Origin: an uncultured Cellvibrio sp.
GTDB lineage: Bacteria; Pseudomonadota; Gammaproteobacteria; Pseudomonadales; Cellvibrionaceae
Direction: 5' to 3'
Assembly (NCBI GenBank): GCA_946886255.1
Contig: CAMPIG010000270.1
Location: 1 to 6,743, forward strand
Length of the DNA stretch: 6,743 nt
This document shows, in pieces, positions 1-6,674 of this stretch. Numbering within the stretch: the first letter of the stretch is position 1; each line of letters opens with the position of its first letter. The translations under genes and the position numbers were made by a program. Under the pieces are notes generated by a model that saw only the letters and a program-made list of their open reading frames with translations, was not told where the DNA came from and made no database searches.

Positions 1-1053
1 GTTTTGCAGTTGCGCATCGCTACACGCCAGCGTCGCAACGGATGTAGTACCCGCAGTGAAATTCAGTGTGCCGAAATCAATATTTGGACCAATAGGATCG
101 GTGACGTTGGTGCGTTCACTGCGAAAATTTGCTTTAGGTAAAAGATTTACCATGTCCACACTCATCAGGTCGTTCATCAATTCCATGTAACCGCCCGCCC
201 CGGTGCCGGTGTTCGCCAGACGACGCCCGTTCTGGCAAATCGTCGGTTCACCGGGATACGCCGGTGCGAGCGTGCCGATCACGCGGCCGATGCTTGGATT
301 GGGTGTGTTCTGGCCGGATGCATAATCGGCCCGGAGTTGCGGCGTGGTCAGTGTGGGACACATCTCAAACATCACAAAACGCAACACAATGCCGGTTGCG
401 CCCGGCGCATCGATGATGGATTTGAGCATCGCGCTGTTTTGGTTGTAACTCACCACGCTGCTCAACGGAAATGTAATTTGAAACGTGCCGCTGATACGAC
501 TGGAACCGGGCGCATCCGGCTCGCCGACCAGGATGCGTACGGCAAGATCCTGGCTGCTGCACACGGTGTCATGGCGAATTAATAATTCCGGTGTGCTGCC
601 GGAACCGATTTGCAAACCGCCGACAAAAATTTGTGTGGTTTGTCCGCTGGTCGGATCAAGATCAACCATCATCGGCCCTGATACAGGGCCTTGTTTTGTT
701 ACCGGATCGATTGAACCCAATAAATACACCGGTTGACCAACCAGGTCGCCGCTGCTGCTGATATTGCCGGGCGTACCTTGCGAACTGATCAACGCATTCT
801 GCATATCCACCACATGCTGCCCGTAATGGTTCCAGCCGCCCGCCGTGTAGTAATCACCGGAGGGTGCGTTGATAAATGCATTTAATTGATCATCGCTGAA
901 TACCTGCGCGCTGGGTGCAACCGTCGACGTAGTCAGATCAAATAAATTCAAGGTACCGCTGGAGTACGGAATGGTCGGCGAATTATTCGGCACGCTCACA
1001 TCGGTACGAATACCGCCCCAAAAATTCAAACGTGGTCCATTGAGAATGCTCAT
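1..1053 (-). CDS. VioB/RebD/StaD-like protein, N-terminal 351 residues (3' end outside window)
   Basis: The frame is open from an ATG at 1053 to base 1 with no stop, so the gene is cut by the window edge. AAGGAGT (plus-strand 1059-1065) lies 7 bases before the ATG and overlaps the stop of the upstream gene. The product starts MSILNGPRLNFWGG, which resembles the VioB start as I recall it (MSILDFPRIHFRGW). Further parallels in the same order are an NH-aromatic pair at 75-77, GDLVG at 102-106, a DLDPTS...QIFVGGLQI stretch at 131-149, and GRVIGTLAPAYPGEP...GRRL at 256-279. VioB and its relatives RebD/StaD are haem proteins that couple imines of aromatic 2-oxo acids in violacein and bisindole pathways. 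VioB is about 1000 residues with a ferritin-like C-terminal part, which cannot be seen here. No signal peptide is visible, so it is probably cytoplasmic. It could also be a shorter protein sharing only this N-terminal domain. The substrate is unknown, and no VioA-like oxidase is present in the window. Confidence 0.62.
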   Translation of the reverse strand, partial: MSILNGPRLNFWGGIRTDVSVPNNSPTIPYSSGTLNLFDLTTSTVAPSAQVFSDDQLNAFINAPSGDYYTAGGWNHYGQHVVDMQNALISSQGTPGNISSSGDLVGQPVYLLGSIDPVTKQGPVSGPMMVDLDPTSGQTTQIFVGGLQIGSGSTPELLIRHDTVCSSQDLAVRILVGEPDAPGSSRISGTFQITFPLSSVVSYNQNSAMLKSIIDAPGATGIVLRFVMFEMCPTLTTPQLRADYASGQNTPNPSIGRVIGTLAPAYPGEPTICQNGRRLANTGTGAGGYMELMNDLMSVDMVNLLPKANFRSERTNVTDPIGPNIDFGTLNFTAGTTSVATLACSDAQLQN

Positions 1054-1063
1054 GTATTACTCC

Positions 1064-2371
1064 TTAATTTTGCGTGGCAGTTGCTTTTTTGATTGCAGCT
1101 GCAGGTGCTTGGGCAAATTTAAACAGGTAAGAAAAATCCGATTTATAGAGACTGTTGACCGGTGTCGCCATGGAGTGACAATTCATGCAACTGCTGTTGG
1201 GTTGAATGTAACTTTCCATGGTGACATTGGCTGAGATCGCCGGCGTCGGTTGGCCGAGTGGATTGCTGGGGTTGTCGGGCATCAGCGGACGTTGCGTAGT
1301 GACTAATTGATAATATTGGAACGCGGTTTTCGTCAAATTTTGTTGCGCAAAATTATTCGCTTTCTGCGTGGTGGCCGGAATAGGTGTTACACGGTTTAAT
1401 GGATTGGGTGTAGAAAAGGTGACGCCCTCTTTCGGCACGCATACCAACTGGTTATCTTGCTGCTGCCAAAGGCAGGCTGAATGATTGATATCGCTTGGTG
1501 ACGCCTTGCTATTGAAATAGGAATAGAACACACCGTCAGCAGGTTTATCGACCCATTTGCCGTCGACATTTTCTTTAGGCGGTACGTTGTCGATATGTTC
1601 AAAGGTGGACCAGATCCATTGTGGATAACCTGCGGCTTTGGTCGCAATATGCAGGCCTACCAAACCTAAAGTGGCAGCGCTGGCTTTACCAGTGGATTGA
1701 CCCTTCTCATCAAATATTTCCACCTGTGCTTGCATGCTCAGGTAGCGGCTCGCGTCATCGTTTTTGGTCAACATTCGCCAGCTGGCTTTGATTTCAGTCG
1801 CGGTATCCGGAAAATTAATATTGTTTGCCTTGCCAACGATATCCGCGTTGTAGAAATTATTGTTAACGATGTAGTCGTAAGAGGTCTTGTTAGCATAAAT
1901 GGCGTAATAGGTCGGATTGCCGCGTTGGTCAATCAACCAGCCGCCCACGGCTTGATCTACCATATTCACGATGCCGGTATTTTTCAGCACGGACACGTTA
2001 ATTGTGCTGAGGCTGGTATCAATCTCTCCTGAATTCCAGCCGCCTGGATTTTTTGCACTGGGTAAAAAAATCTGCTCAACGGTTTTGTAACTTTGCCACA
2101 CCACCGGACCTTTTGCCCCGATAGATTGGCTGCAATTCGGTTGCCCACGTTCTCCGGATTTAGCCGGCCAATTCAATGCAACAAACAGTTGCCAGCTATA
2201 AGAATCAAAATCCTCCTGACTCGCCGTCGGTGCAGGCGCTTTTGTCGGTGGGGTACAAGGCCAGGTCCATTGCAAATTGGCTTTGGTTGTCTGTGCTTCA
2301 TCTCTGGCGTGGGCTGTCAGGCTAAATCCCAGTGCTGCCAGCAAGACAACACCATACTTCAACTTATACAT
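1064..2371 (-). CDS. exported c-type cytochrome-like protein with one C-terminal CXXCH
   Basis: This is a complete 435-residue gene. GGAG lies 9 bases before the ATG at 2371. The N-terminus (MYKLKYGVVLLAALGFSLTAHA) is a Sec signal peptide with likely cleavage after Ala22, so the protein should be periplasmic. The only haem-attachment motif is CMNCH at 395-399 (plus-strand 1175-1189), leaving just 36 residues after it. The body carries stretches typical of a family usually annotated as 'cytochrome c family protein': a DFDSYSWQLFVALNWP block near residue 55, a VVWQSYKTVEQIF block near 90, and a GLVGLHIATK...PQWIWSTFEHIDNVP block near 240-265. It probably binds one covalent haem and transfers electrons or oxidises a periplasmic substrate, but the reaction is not known to me. 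It lies 36 bases after the unknown exported gene and ends 10 bases before the VioB-like start, consistent with one transcript. Confidence 0.82.
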   Translation of the reverse strand: MYKLKYGVVLLAALGFSLTAHARDEAQTTKANLQWTWPCTPPTKAPAPTASQEDFDSYSWQLFVALNWPAKSGERGQPNCSQSIGAKGPVVWQSYKTVEQIFLPSAKNPGGWNSGEIDTSLSTINVSVLKNTGIVNMVDQAVGGWLIDQRGNPTYYAIYANKTSYDYIVNNNFYNADIVGKANNINFPDTATEIKASWRMLTKNDDASRYLSMQAQVEIFDEKGQSTGKASAATLGLVGLHIATKAAGYPQWIWSTFEHIDNVPPKENVDGKWVDKPADGVFYSYFNSKASPSDINHSACLWQQQDNQLVCVPKEGVTFSTPNPLNRVTPIPATTQKANNFAQQNLTKTAFQYYQLVTTQRPLMPDNPSNPLGQPTPAISANVTMESYIQPNSSCMNCHSMATPVNSLYKSDFSYLFKFAQAPAAAIKKATATQN

Positions 2372-2407: not shown

Positions 2408-3352
2408 TTATTCCGAAGAATGCTTCGATTGAATTTCCAGTCGATCCCATTGCGCTTTGTTGCCGCTCTTTAAGGGCGCAGGCGGGTTAAACAATTGACA
2501 TGCGGGTGGATCTTTCGGACACATCTTGGCGACGCGATCCCAGGTTTTTGCCGGGTCCGGCCGTTCGATGCGGAAGCCAGTGTAGTTCTGGCTGACAATC
2601 GGCGCGTTGGCCACCGTCACATCACCGGAAAAATAAAACGATTGTGGATGGCGATAGGGCGCCCCACCTTTTTCATCTGTGGTAGCGTCTTTATTAAAAG
2701 CATAACCAAACAGAATCGGCCCCTGCGGTGATTGCAAATCCAGCGCGTAGGCTTGCAGTGTGTTATTCAGATGTGCGCTGCGCGTGGGGCTGTAAGGCAG
2801 ATGCTTGATAAAGTCTTGCCGGGGCGGGTGATTCTCGGGCGAAAACAAACAACAGGCCGGCATGGTCGTGGGGCGATCTTCCGGGTAGGTTAAAAAGTAT
2901 GCCTTATTGCCTAAAGAAATAAATGTGCAGGTGTAGTTATTATTCTTAATCGGAAAAATCGGCAGGCAATACTTTTCATAATGTTCCATCATCGCGCCGA
3001 AACCGTCGCCATCAGCTGGAATGTAGCTGGTGTCGTAATAACTGGAACCGTATGAAACGGTGTAATCCTTTTTCGTTAAGGTTGATGGCGGGCTGCTGTA
3101 AGGCGGTGGATTTTTTTCATAATTCTGCGTAACGCGATACATGGTCCAGTCGCTCACCCACATGGCCGGGAAAAACGGGTCACTGGGATCTGTGTCGACA
3201 CGGTCTGCGATGCAATTACCGTTGTCTGCGTTACAGCCGAGGCTGTTGTGTACGCCCATCGTAAAAAAGACATCGTCTTGCTGGGCCGTTGCATACTGGC
3301 TGAGCGCGAGCAAACCAGCGATGATCAACGCGTTCCCTATGGAATTTTTCAT
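2408..3352 (-). CDS. exported protein of unknown family with eight cysteines
   Basis: I do not recognise this family. The ATG at 3352 is preferred over an in-frame upstream ATG at 3400 for two reasons: AAAGGAGAG lies just before it, and the product then starts with a good signal peptide (MKNSIGNALIIAGLLALSQYATA, cleavage after about Ala23). The upstream start would lie inside the VTT gene and would put a charged extension before the signal. The protein is 314 residues. The mature part has eight cysteines (40, 47, 129, 142, 167, 168, 278, 285), an even number that would suit disulfides in the periplasm, including a Cys-Cys pair. It is rich in Pro, Tyr, Asp and Asn, has no CXXCH motif, and shows no transmembrane segment after the signal. 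Its place directly before the cytochrome-like gene suggests it works with that protein in the periplasm, but this rests on position alone. Confidence 0.78.
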   Translation of the reverse strand: MKNSIGNALIIAGLLALSQYATAQQDDVFFTMGVHNSLGCNADNGNCIADRVDTDPSDPFFPAMWVSDWTMYRVTQNYEKNPPPYSSPPSTLTKKDYTVSYGSSYYDTSYIPADGDGFGAMMEHYEKYCLPIFPIKNNNYTCTFISLGNKAYFLTYPEDRPTTMPACCLFSPENHPPRQDFIKHLPYSPTRSAHLNNTLQAYALDLQSPQGPILFGYAFNKDATTDEKGGAPYRHPQSFYFSGDVTVANAPIVSQNYTGFRIERPDPAKTWDRVAKMCPKDPPACQLFNPPAPLKSGNKAQWDRLEIQSKHSSE

Positions 3353-3365: not shown

Positions 3366-4070
3366 CTATTTTTTTGTACGTAAACCTGGGTACAGTGCAA
3401 TCACACACGAGCGACAAAACAAAAATAAACCTGGCAACAACACGGATGCAAAGATGATCAGTAAAAAAGCTGTTTCGCCGGCAAGGAATGAGCCGATGTA
3501 GGCATAGGCTACCGCCAGACCGGCATTCGCCAGGGTAGTCACCAACAAAAATCTTTTCAGGGGATAACACTTCATACCGGCGGCCAATACCGAGACCTCA
3601 GCCAATACCGGAACACCGCGCAGGCACACCAACGCCAGCGTGCCCAGCTTATTAGCCAACTCACTGGCATGCTGCTTATCGCCAGCGCTTAACCAACGCG
3701 ACGCGAGGCGGAAGTAACCGGCGCCGAGAAAATAACCGAAGACAGAACCGCAACAAAGACCGGTAAAGATCGTCAGGATACCGCTGACGAACCCCAAATG
3801 CGTTGCCGCGAGCAAAGCTAATAACATGGAGGGAACCGGCAAAAGCACATCAAAAATCAACAGCAATATCACGACTATTGCCAGGCTTAATTGATACGCG
3901 GGTTGCTGCACAAGGGCTTGAACCAATCCCGTGATGGCGTGTTGAATGGAGGTTTCAAATAATAAAAAACTGGCGATGACGATACCGGTAAACACCGACA
4001 ATGAAAACCAAAAACCGGCACCCGGCAATTGCCTTCGCCATGTAGTCCATGCATTTACACCTGACTCCAT
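3366..4070 (-). CDS. VTT-domain (DedA/TVP38-like) inner-membrane protein
   Basis: This 234-residue protein is very hydrophobic. Membrane segments are visible at about 19-38, 61-90, 94-118, 143-166, 173-195 and 202-222, some of which are probably re-entrant. The family signs are the LPVPS stretch at 77-81, the Gly-rich GLCCGSVFGYFLGAG at 104-118, and RGVPVLAEVSVLAAG at 151-165, which matches the conserved Arg...Pro...Glu...Gly element of VTT/DedA proteins. Members of this superfamily include lipid scramblases and flippases or proteins needed for membrane homeostasis. The substrate here cannot be told from sequence. The ATG at 4070 has AAGGAA about 6-7 bases upstream (plus-strand 4077-4082). 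It is the first gene of the leftward set and ends 13 bases before the next one. The C-terminus is basic (RTKK). Confidence 0.85.
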   Translation of the reverse strand: MESGVNAWTTWRRQLPGAGFWFSLSVFTGIVIASFLLFETSIQHAITGLVQALVQQPAYQLSLAIVVILLLIFDVLLPVPSMLLALLAATHLGFVSGILTIFTGLCCGSVFGYFLGAGYFRLASRWLSAGDKQHASELANKLGTLALVCLRGVPVLAEVSVLAAGMKCYPLKRFLLVTTLANAGLAVAYAYIGSFLAGETAFLLIIFASVLLPGLFLFCRSCVIALYPGLRTKK

Positions 4071-4093
4071 CAGCTATTCCTTTGACAATTTTT

Positions 4094-4106
4094 GAGAAGG
4101 CTTCTC
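4094..4106. repeat. short perfect inverted repeat before the VTT gene
   Basis: GAGAAG and CTTCTC flank a single central base, giving a 13-base dyad whose inner edge is 24 bases upstream of the VTT start. The tight symmetry is more like a protein-binding site than an RNA hairpin, because one base cannot form a loop. It lies downstream of the candidate leftward promoter, where a repressor could act. No regulator gene is present in the window. Confidence 0.35.
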
Positions 4107-4198
4107 TGAAAACCTAAACCAGACAGCAAGAGCTGCCATTGTAAGAGTGTTCAGTAAAGACCAGAAATTCGGTATGTGCAATTACGGAGTATTACTGA

Positions 4199-4227
4199 TT
4201 CATAATGAGTGTGTGGTGTGTCGTCAA
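4199..4227 (-). promoter_or_regulatory. candidate sigma-70 promoter for the leftward four-gene unit
   Basis: On the minus strand, TTGACG (plus-strand 4222-4227) is followed after exactly 17 bases by TATGAA (4199-4204). This gives five of six matches to the -35 consensus and four of six to the -10. Transcription would begin near 4190 and leave a leader of about 120 bases before the VTT start at 4070. This comes from inspection only; chance matches of this quality occur in AT-rich gaps. Confidence 0.4.
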
Positions 4228-4302
4228 ATGCTGCGTGCACTTTTTTCGTCTGTCTGTTTGATCTCTGTAATAGCTTGTAATTTTATTACCGCAAAATAGG
4301 AC

Positions 4303-4343
4303 TAGGCTTCTTATAGCCGCCTATGCTGTGCAGCGAGCTATGC
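4303..4343. repeat. cluster of short direct and inverted repeats upstream of the polyphenol oxidase
   Basis: CTATGC occurs at 4321-4326 and again at 4338-4343, a spacing of 17 bases. Several small inverted pairs overlap the same stretch: TAGGC/GCCTA (4303-4307 and 4319-4323), GCTG/CAGC (4325-4328 and 4331-4334) and ATAGC/GCTAT (4313-4317 and 4337-4341). The cluster sits about 100 bases before the polyphenol oxidase ATG and could be an operator or leader structure. I found no convincing -35/-10 pair for the rightward unit; TATAAC at 4357-4362 is a possible -10 without a good -35. Confidence 0.28.
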
Positions 4344-4427
4344 GAACAAAATAATCTATAACCAGATTTTCGTGTTGCTAAAGTGATGATTGCTTTCTGG
4401 AAAAATCTCGCCCAACACATCTCAACC

Positions 4428-4434
4428 AAAGGAA
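4428..4434 (+). promoter_or_regulatory. ribosome binding site that decides the polyphenol oxidase start
   Basis: AAAGGAA ends 6 bases before the ATG at 4441 (core GGA to ATG gap of 7). It favours this ATG over an in-frame TTG at 4390, which would add 17 residues with no homology-like features. The ATG at 4436 is out of frame. Confidence 0.75.
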
Positions 4435-4440
4435 AATGAC

Positions 4441-5919
4441 ATGCCTATTCGAGAGAGAAAGAATGTGTATATGTTGCCGAATGGTGACCAGACTCTGGAG
4501 TGGTACGCACGAGCGGTAGCTGAAATGCGCAAGCGGCCAACGACTGATCCTACCAGTTGGAATTTTCAGGCCGCTATTCACGGGTTCAGGCCAGACAGCC
4601 CTTTCTGGGCCAGCGCCGGCCAATTACCTTCTGATGGGGAACGCAAGGAATACTGGAACCAATGCCAACATGGTTCCTGGTATTTTTTACCCTGGCACCG
4701 GATGTATCTCGCCTACTTTGAAGAAATTGTGGCAGACACGATTGTGAAGTTGGGTGGTCCGCCGAATTGGGCTTTGCCGTTCTGGGATTACAGCGATACA
4801 CATAATCCTTATGCACTCAATATTCCACCGGCTTTTACGGCTGGCTCCCCAGCTACCAATCCCTTGCAAATGCCAAACGGTGGTAACGCTCCCGGCAGGA
4901 GAAACACGCATATTAATGCGCGGGATGTCACACTGGGCGCGCTAAACAATTTAGTTTTTCAAGGATTTCCTAATGGCGCTTCTCCCGGCTTTGGCGGACC
5001 TGTTACCGGGTTTTCCCACGGGGGCAGTATTCATGGCGCACTGGAAAGTAAACCTCACGATCTGGTTCATGTGGATATCGGCGGCGCGATGGGTAGTCCA
5101 CCAACTGCCGCACTCGATCCAATTTTCTGGCTTCATCACGCCAACATCGATCGGTTGTGGCAAGTGTGGTTAAACCTGGGTAACCGGCGCAGCAACCCCG
5201 TCGATAACGCCTGGTTAAAATACACTTTCGATTTCCGTAACGCACAACGTGCACCGACCTCTTTGCGCGTTATGGATGTTGTGGATACAACCCGGGTACT
5301 TACTGGCTACACCTACCAAGGTGTTCCTGCTAATCCGCCCGTGCAAGCGATGAACAAAGGATTTGGTTTCATAACCGACTCATTGTTTTCCACGCTCAAA
5401 CAAGGAGAAGATGATCTGCCGCCAGAAGTTGCAGCAGCAAGTTTGCAGGCTGTCGGATTAAACTCCGCCGGTATCACAATAGAGTTACCATTTCTCGCTG
5501 CCAACCGTCGCAACAGTCCGGTGCGCAGCTTTCATGCCAAAGCACTACACCAGGAAAATGTATTGGAAGCCGATGTGCAAACGGCGACGAGCACCTATCT
5601 GAATTTTGAAAATATTATCGGCAAAGGTGTACCACCCGCGTGTGATGTTTATTTGAATCTGGATAATGGCAGCGCGGTGGATGAAAGCCATTATGCCGGT
5701 GCCCTGGCGTTCTTCGGTATTGATGAAGCATCAACAGCAGATGAACGACACAGTGGCAGCGGCCAACATTATGTTCTGGATATCAGTGACCTCGTCAACG
5801 AACTGCAACAGCAAGACAATTGGCATCCGGAGTATTTACAAGTCCATTTGCAACCACGGGAACCGATGGATGAAGAATCCAAGGTAACCATTGGCCGTAT
5901 CAGTTTGTACGTAAAATGA
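4441..5919 (+). CDS. type-3 copper polyphenol oxidase (tyrosinase family) with plant-like DWL and KFDV domains
   Basis: This 492-residue enzyme should oxidise phenols or catechols to quinones with O2 at a two-copper centre. CuA ligands are His47, His77 and His86, within HGSWYFLPWHRMYLAYFE (77-94), which fits tyrosinase signature 1. CuB ligands are His206, His210 and His233, with DPIFWLHHANID (226-237) fitting signature 2. Cys75-x-His77 is placed to form the Cys-His thioether seen in fungal and plant enzymes. Glu202, four residues before His206, matches the 'waterkeeper' Glu position. Residues about 254-295 resemble the plant DWL domain (AWLKYTFDF, VMDVVDTT, GYTYQ). Residues about 400-492 resemble the KFDV domain (CDVYLNLDNG, YAGALAFFGI, LDISDLVNEL, VHLQPRE, VTIGRISL). 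In plants this domain covers the active site until removed. No Sec or Tat signal is visible, so it is probably cytoplasmic. Its stop overlaps the next start. Whether it hydroxylates monophenols or only oxidises diphenols is open; the residue after His206 is Asp, not the Asn of B. megaterium tyrosinase. Confidence 0.93.
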   Translation: MPIRERKNVYMLPNGDQTLEWYARAVAEMRKRPTTDPTSWNFQAAIHGFRPDSPFWASAGQLPSDGERKEYWNQCQHGSWYFLPWHRMYLAYFEEIVADTIVKLGGPPNWALPFWDYSDTHNPYALNIPPAFTAGSPATNPLQMPNGGNAPGRRNTHINARDVTLGALNNLVFQGFPNGASPGFGGPVTGFSHGGSIHGALESKPHDLVHVDIGGAMGSPPTAALDPIFWLHHANIDRLWQVWLNLGNRRSNPVDNAWLKYTFDFRNAQRAPTSLRVMDVVDTTRVLTGYTYQGVPANPPVQAMNKGFGFITDSLFSTLKQGEDDLPPEVAAASLQAVGLNSAGITIELPFLAANRRNSPVRSFHAKALHQENVLEADVQTATSTYLNFENIIGKGVPPACDVYLNLDNGSAVDESHYAGALAFFGIDEASTADERHSGSGQHYVLDISDLVNELQQQDNWHPEYLQVHLQPREPMDEESKVTIGRISLYVK

Positions 5920-6674
5920 TAGCGCGCCGATACCCGCAGCTGTGGTTATGGTTGTTTTGCCTGCTGGCCTGGCTATTCATGCTATGGCCACCGGGCGAAC
6001 ATACGCAGAGCTTGCACCACTGTCATCACGGGTGCGGTGACACGCTTTTGCTGGGAACGGAATCCCACGTCAGCGCAGATTTTCTCAAGGGAATACTTCA
6101 TTGGTCGCTAATGATTGTGGCGATGATGTTTCCCTTATTGAAAGAGCCTCTGGCTTACGCCCTTTCACGTTATCCCAGCCACCAGGGTTATAAAGCGATG
6201 GTGTGGTTTCTGCTGGGTTATTGCATACCCTGGCTGGTGGTGGGCTTGTTGCTGCAAACAATCGTAATGTTATTACCCTTGTTTATCCCATCCGACAGTA
6301 ATTCACCGACCGTAAATATTTATACCTTCTTACCCTTTGCAGGTTTTGCCATAGCGGCGTTTTGGGTATGGTCTCCGTGGCGGCGCAAAGCCAGTCTGGC
6401 ATGCAGCCGTACGATTCCTATGCGCATTCAGGGATGGTATGCAGTGCGTGATTGTTTGCATTATGGACATCTATCCGGTATCGCATGCGTGCGTAACTGC
6501 TGGTCGCCTATGATGGCGCTGGTCATGGCGCAACATAATATGCTGTTGATGTTTATTGTTACCCTGTTGCTAATTTACGAGCGCACTTTTCTGACGTATA
6601 AAAGTCATACCCTGGGATATGCTTGGGCTTGCCTGTCGGTTGTGTTTTTCCTGCAAGCCACCACAAGCATTTGA
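5916..6674 (+). CDS. DUF2182-like polytopic membrane protein with His/Cys-rich loop
   Basis: The ATG at 5916 overlaps the polyphenol oxidase stop (ATGA). It has no clear Shine-Dalgarno site of its own, so translation is probably coupled. The 252-residue product has membrane segments at about 9-24, 60-80, 95-121, 136-153, 186-203, 206-222 and 232-248. DUF2182-like signs are HWSLMIVAMMFP (62-73) and GHLSGIACVRNCWSPMMALVMAQHN (184-208); the family is described as predicted metal-binding membrane proteins. Between segments 1 and 2 is HTQSLHHCHHGCGD (29-42), with five His and two Cys, likely to bind a metal. Basic residues before segment 1 (ARRY) suggest the N-terminus is inside and this loop faces the periplasm. 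A role in copper supply for the coupled oxidase is inferred from the operon and the loop. The expected CxxC-type context around 158-170 is only loosely kept, so family membership is likely but not certain. A second stop (TAA) follows directly. Confidence 0.75.
   Translation: MIARRYPQLWLWLFCLLAWLFMLWPPGEHTQSLHHCHHGCGDTLLLGTESHVSADFLKGILHWSLMIVAMMFPLLKEPLAYALSRYPSHQGYKAMVWFLLGYCIPWLVVGLLLQTIVMLLPLFIPSDSNSPTVNIYTFLPFAGFAIAAFWVWSPWRRKASLACSRTIPMRIQGWYAVRDCLHYGHLSGIACVRNCWSPMMALVMAQHNMLLMFIVTLLLIYERTFLTYKSHTLGYAWACLSVVFFLQATTSI

Follow-up and report, generated by a model that had tools for sequence, protein, structure and literature searches.

A fragment of a VioB-like gene at the end of a contig from an uncultured Cellvibrio sp. 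(CAMPIG010000270.1, assembly GCA_946886255.1) raises the question of what a relative of an indole-pigment enzyme does beside a cytochrome-like gene and a DedA-type gene. The window, that is, the whole stretch of DNA analyzed (6,743 nucleotides; contig positions 1 to 6,743, forward strand), carries six genes, four on the minus strand and two on the plus strand. It ends inside the VioB-like gene at contig base 1 and holds no ebo genes. A preliminary description, based on block matches to VioB, had offered two readings: a new context for aromatic imine coupling, or an N-terminal domain used for something else. The features are as follows.

1..1053, minus strand: vioN1, predicted stand-alone VioB N-terminal half, codons 1-351 of about 596 (ATG at 1053, open at base 1)
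1054..1063, minus strand: gap of 10 bp from the cyt1 stop to the vioN1 start
1064..2371, minus strand: cyt1, CxxCH protein with a single putative haem-attachment motif (CMNCH) and an export signal by eye
2408..3352, minus strand: unk2, Cys-rich protein with an export signal by eye and no assigned function
3366..4070, minus strand: VTT/DedA membrane protein (PF09335, E 3.5e-16)
4071..4440, no strand: intergenic region from which the EDB-type and tyrosinase operons diverge
4441..5919, plus strand: tyrosinase/polyphenol oxidase (PF00264, PPO1_DWL, DUF7868)
5916..6674, plus strand: PpoB2-type copper chaperone (PF09948), with a 4-base overlap with the tyrosinase stop

The VioB likeness was assessed by profile-profile comparison (hhalign) using a profile of 23 window-type homologues (A1), a broader one (A4) built from 13 stand-alone N halves, and a profile of 19 VioB/RebD proteins (A2), the latter aligned out of 85 matches to a VioB query. 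A1 aligned with A2 over 553 columns (probability 99.6, E 2.5e-24), pairing residues 1-587 of P0001, the full-length version of the window protein (596 residues), end to end with residues 1-578 of VioB. A4 aligned with A2 over 571 columns (probability 100, E 1.1e-48), and the control, the CxxCH family against A2, gave a probability of 0.2. The likeness first proposed for the 351-residue fragment is real, and chance block matches are excluded by the two comparisons together with the control. Four of the five blocks originally named (start motif; DLVG; D.DPT...QI..G; GT/GV...GE...GR.L) fall in register, while the NH-aromatic block (NHY here, NHF in VioB) lies in the same stretch, about five residues out of register. 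Against the VioB equivalog model TIGR04492 (cut-off, 1250 bits), the fragment matched weakly (E 0.0026, residues 1-152, 15.6 bits) and P0001 scored 17.5 bits; some members, such as that of L001 (E 5.9e-8, residues 1-417), scored better, and P0111, one of five members tried, had no match. A TIGR04492 scan of 295 genomes gave no match even in G001, which carries the gene, and was therefore uninformative.

Beyond residue 351, the preliminary description had pointed to a ferritin-like C-terminal half or, in the opposite case, to an unrelated one. Neither was found: residues 352-587 still match the VioB N half, the protein ends at 596, and the C-terminal half of VioB is simply missing. Neither PF12902 nor any other Pfam domain was detected in five full or partial members (P0001, P0005, P0056, P0111, and P0120). 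On the VioB profile, matches of stand-alone ferritin-like proteins begin at about 614-638 and those of N halves extend to about 619, so the window protein corresponds to the VioB N half (578 of 998 residues in VioB) and includes none of the ferritin-like half. Judged by homology, the window gene is almost certainly a stand-alone VioB N-terminal half, and the encoded protein is predicted to be the front half of an indole-pigment enzyme, with the catalytic back half missing. Breakage or truncation of a vioB gene was ruled out, as 118 of the 120 relatives listed (the best 120 of 205 found) are 590-613 residues long, the sequence is conserved, and the window type forms a clade of its own. Mean column identity is 71% (23 rows), with conservation over the whole length and many invariant W, H, R, D, and E residues. 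Relatives with names were Pseudomonas proteins called "hypothetical" or "Ig-like domain-containing" and one Azomonas protein. The family is rare in profile scans, with matches in 4 of 390 genomes and, in a second set, 3 of 295 for A1 (one of the latter, G192, was dropped as noise; E 9.9e-4, 49 positions, 77-codon frame) and in 3 of 398 genomes for A4.

The nearest known enzymes, VioB, RebD, and StaD (TIGR04492 plus PF12902), are the iminophenyl-pyruvate dimer synthase and chromopyrrolate synthase; the start motif and the D.DP...QI..G and MP..R..S blocks are common to them and the window protein, whereas their ferritin-like half is absent from the window type. They differ from it further in that the window type forms a separate clade (100/100 support) and that no amino acid oxidase was recognized in the EDB genes tested. 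As the preliminary description had noted, no VioA/StaO/RebO-type oxidase is in view: none occurs among the other five genes of the window, nor was an amino acid oxidase found among the tested EDB genes of L001 and L047. In the surveyed literature, we found no function given for the VioB N half, that of VioB itself included.

Structure prediction had been suggested at the outset. The AlphaFold2 model of the window VioB half (mean pLDDT, 76.8; pTM, 0.80) gave VIA-align matches mainly covering residues 395-500, an Ig-like sandwich. Among the Foldseek matches listed were Ig-domain chains and others, with TM-scores of 0.15 or less by query length and none covering the whole chain; no VioB, ferritin, or haem-enzyme entries were among the fold-search matches listed. 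With so little fold match beyond the Ig-like sandwich, no active site can be named from structure. Sequence searches of the PDB returned no match for the window fragment, a best match of E 0.012 for A1 (residues 390-478), no relative for the CxxCH family, and a best match of E 0.016 for VioB itself (3hl1, ferritin-like part).

The gene directly upstream of vioN1 is cyt1. The preliminary description had correctly placed a cytochrome-like gene and a DedA-type gene beside the fragment; they encode the CxxCH protein (CMNCH) and the VTT/DedA protein. The cyt1 protein and its family belong to no Pfam family and had no NCBIfam match near a cut-off. The family counts 1154 proteins at E 0.01 or better. 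CxxCH is present in 118 of the 120 relatives listed (the best 120 of 1154), the remaining two being short; residues kept in at least 97% include H241, E193, K195, W252, W254, and E258 (window numbering), which are also invariant in a 24-row alignment. Members (P0206-P0325 of more than 1000) are mostly without names; those with a named source come from Cellvibrio, Gilvimarinus, Nitrospirillum, Endozoicomonas, Marinobacterium, and Pseudomonas, among others.

A contig scan gave 45 loci (42 labeled Pseudomonas and one each Rheinheimera, Azomonas, and "Pantoea") with 88 matched N-half frames, 84 of them with a recognizable start. Of these starts, 83 fall -4 to 13 bp after the stop of a CxxCH gene, the sole exception being in L042, next to a shortened cyt frame. 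The motif is found in 44 of 45 cyt1 frames and in 40 of 41 cyt2 frames, both exceptions again in L042. The window-type gene frame is shortened in L042 and L044, and these short frames may be assembly errors or decay. The "Pantoea" locus (L023, labeled Pantoea sp. Cy-639) holds a Pseudomonas-type cluster with 63% identity to P0001, and its label may be wrong.

In two genomes (G819 and G007), an N half stands directly before a PF12902 gene instead of a cyt gene. Readable stand-alone VioB halves thus adjoin a metal-protein gene, CxxCH or, in these two genomes, PF12902, a new pattern that leaves out P0201, P0203, P0204, and P0205. A ferritin-like partner as the rule was rejected: PF12902 matched in 14 of 349 Pseudomonadota genomes (13 over cut-off), and among these 14 only G819 had an N half, with up to about 1.5 kb of flank seen on each side; G007 had been found earlier. 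The G819 pair (L082 64-3080, plus strand) consists of an N half of 648 amino acids overlapping a PF12902 protein of 357 amino acids by 4 bp, preceded at about 1 kb by a weak VTT-domain gene (L081 13269-14000). P0201 and P0203 (663-668 residues, 42-43% identical to the VioB N half, without PF12902) make up another kind of stand-alone half, which falls on the VioB side in the tree.

In a tree of 27 N halves, each of the following groups had 100/100 support: the window type, the vioN2 type, the ferritin-split type, P0204/P0205, and VioB/RebD with P0201/P0203. The deep order of the groups was not recovered by this 27-row tree. Haem and ferritin partner labels required two changes on the best tree and one change in 29% of bootstrap trees, and ten rows, P0001 included, were unlike in composition; given these points, partner swapping is not demonstrated by the tree.

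The wider setting corrects the preliminary description, which had placed the gene outside the usual indole genes. The EDB-type gene set is known from soil bacteria, which make worm-repelling indoles from tryptophan. The order unk2-cyt1-vioN1 occurs in 44 of the 45 loci (the 45th, L045, holds the vioN1 end alone), and unk2 shares 68-76% identity with its EDB counterparts (67% for a short piece in L042). EboA, EboB (TatD-like), EboE, and EboF (phosphodiesterase) are present in 40 of 45 loci; of the five without the full set, four are short contigs or contig ends and one, L033, is rearranged. A ScyD/E-family gene adjoins or overlaps the end of the vioN1 frame in 43 of 45. Ahead of these genes, a VTT-EboD fusion, EboC, and EboA were found in all 8 genomes read further upstream (the fusion was checked with Pfam in two of the 8). 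The window VTT gene is 50-58% identical to the N-terminal domain of VTT-EboD in 8 of 8 genomes (57% over 198 and 51% over 210 residues against the VTT part of two of these fusions); this identity marks the window DedA gene as EDB-derived. A further, diverged pair, cyt2-vioN2, is present in 40 of 45 loci, with vioN2 of about 790 residues and 20-23% identity to P0001; the G272 cluster has one cyt-vioN pair only. PF12902 was not found in 7 of 8 EDB genomes.

The four minus-strand window proteins are about 50-76% identical to their counterparts in EDB loci of the type described from Pseudomonas fluorescens NZI7. The window differs from these loci in that its VTT gene is separate from EboD, with unk2 directly after VTT, and in its divergent tyrosinase/copper chaperone pair, not seen in any of the 45 loci or, in the 8 genomes read further, at the EDB locus. 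An orphan context was rejected, since the neighbors are EDB genes, and the window appears to be a partly dispersed or reduced EDB-type operon beside a copper oxidase pair. Dispersal is also seen elsewhere. G999 (Pseudomonas sp. FEN) has EboC-unk2-cyt1-vioN1 at one locus and EboD, EboA, B, E, F, cyt2, vioN2, and the ScyD/E gene at another on the same contig. Its EboD lacks most of the VTT part and EboC is at a separate locus (L104 6321-7565; L033 1-849); a PF01593 FAD amine oxidase gene lies about 8 kb downstream of its vioN1 (L033 13011-14780, plus strand). A bare cyt-vioN pair stands about 232 kb (G511) and about 245 kb (G590) from EboE in the same genome, with an ebo core without VTT around EboE in G511; as the pair stands apart from EboE, co-occurrence is not mere linkage. 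The membrane/haem/VioB-half part of EDB is therefore separable from the ebo export genes.

Published work reports on the chemistry of the EDB cluster. The EDB cluster of P. fluorescens NZI7, presumably the same as the loci described here, includes a full ebo cluster, and ebo genes serve the transport of scytonemin precursors, according to passages of PMC6282210. As relayed in PMC9655573 (on Zhou 2022), the EDB cluster expressed in Escherichia coli converted external tryptophan to indole-3-aldehyde and indolyl-oxoacetamide, which moderately repelled Caenorhabditis elegans (chemotaxis indices, -0.18 and -0.08), together with two further compounds for which no repellence assay is given. The cytochrome-like gene and the DedA-type gene both belong regularly to this type of cluster, which is reported to make indoles from tryptophan. 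Enzymes of E. coli itself could be the source of the published indole-3-aldehyde and similar products. The surveyed excerpts make no mention of a VioB likeness of EDB proteins; the original reports (Burlinson 2013; Zhou 2022) lay outside the survey. Of the two readings offered at the outset, an N-terminal domain used for something else fits better than a new context for imine coupling, because five members lack the ferritin-like half and no match to it was obtained in 7 of 8 genomes that carry the same operon.

The second point of comparison is the scytonemin cluster of Nostoc punctiforme, which shares the ebo genes and a ScyD/E-family gene with the window relatives and also has a tyrosinase (excerpts of PMC2726228 and PMC6282210). 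Scytonemin synthesis is described in PMC2726228, as excerpted, as compartmentalized, with late periplasmic steps proposed and the tyrosinase TyrP in the Nostoc cluster. Unlike that cluster, the tested EDB genes of L001/L047 and the window genes had no ThDP (ScyA-type) or glutamate-dehydrogenase (ScyB-type) domain by Pfam; in place of these, the EDB type carries VioB halves and CxxCH proteins. By eye, the L001 protein of the ScyD/E family shows no export signal, in contrast to Nostoc ScyD/E/F as described in the same excerpts of PMC2726228, which makes the analogy weaker.

The reading we prefer, and to which we give about an even chance, is that the VioB N half would be coupled to a secreted c-type putative haem protein in an EDB/ebo-type tryptophan-to-indole pathway. 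At the level of sequence, its components are in place: whole-protein homology to VioB 1-578, the missing ferritin-like half, the coupling to cyt genes, and the EDB gene content. We infer a mechanism of cytosolic handling, export, and periplasmic haem oxidation. The VioB half, placed in the cytosol because it has no export signal by eye, would bind or shape a tryptophan-derived intermediate (indole-3-pyruvate, its imine, or a condensation product), handling it without the ferritin-like half of VioB. The VTT and Ebo proteins would carry the intermediate across the inner membrane, as reported of ebo for scytonemin synthesis, and the periplasmic c-type haem protein, with unk2, would perform an oxidative step to indolic products. 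In the weakest link of the scheme, the divergent tyrosinase and copper chaperone might oxidize these further, in line with the role proposed for TyrP in scytonemin.

The tight gene coupling also suggests a closer association, in which the VioB half and the CxxCH protein would form one two-subunit haem enzyme, the covalent haem replacing the ferritin-like half as oxidant. Such an enzyme would fit the spacing of 83 of 84 starts at -4 to 13 bp after the cyt stop, the retention of that coupling both in the two paralogous pairs and where a genome has no ebo genes linked to the pair, and the naming of VioB and StaD as haem proteins (an excerpt of PMC2810235; a title cited in PMC10784701). It needs both partners in one compartment, however, and an export signal, by eye, is seen on the CxxCH protein but not on the VioB half, so the two may never meet; the deep branching order, too, gives no sign of whether a partner was swapped. 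We consider this two-subunit enzyme unlikely. It is improbable to a like degree that the N half is a structural or substrate-sequestering EDB protein with no catalytic role, for although no enzyme fold was recognized and the best-matched part is an Ig-like sandwich, the high conservation over the whole length and the invariant W, H, R, D, and E residues speak against it. That the gene is one subunit of a two-gene, chromopyrrolate-type synthase still coupling imines, its ferritin-like subunit lying just downstream, past base 1, or elsewhere, is very unlikely: such pairs exist in G819 (with its 4-bp overlap) and G007, but a ScyD/E-family gene follows vioN1 in 43 of 45 loci, no PF12902 match was found in 7 of 8 genomes that have this operon, and the N halves paired with a ferritin-like gene branch separately with full support.

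Coupling of the VioB half to a secreted haem protein, our preferred reading, can be set in a broader and more tentative frame, in which the VioB N half is a reusable module with interchangeable metal partners and, with the c-type haem protein, would make up a ferritin-free two-component system for oxidizing tryptophan intermediates. On the same doubtful reading, a ferritin partner, fused or split, would give the known indole coupling, most EDB clusters would hold two paralogous copies, and a copper tyrosinase would join in the window. A natural stand-alone half with a different metal partner makes the function of the N half directly testable. "Hypothetical" EDB genes likewise gain relatives and partners, in a cluster whose published phenotype is the repelling of a nematode predator.

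The tyrosinase pair may be either a tailoring addition or a chance neighbor. The window tyrosinase has 8b74 as its nearest solved relative (E 2e-100) and no export signal by eye. The proposed periplasmic late steps and TyrP in the Nostoc scytonemin cluster make a tyrosinase beside the window operon suggestive. Neither strand of the 45 loci carries a tyrosinase or PpoB2 relative (most of these loci stop short of the VTT-EboD gene), and none turned up in the 8 genomes read further upstream of VTT-EboD; tyrosinase relatives occur away from the EDB locus in 5 of 13 EDB and related genomes. With none at the EDB loci of relatives and relatives elsewhere, the window tyrosinase may be there by chance. 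One of the outlying genes, in G006 (L105), has a weak PpoB2-like neighbor, off the EDB locus.
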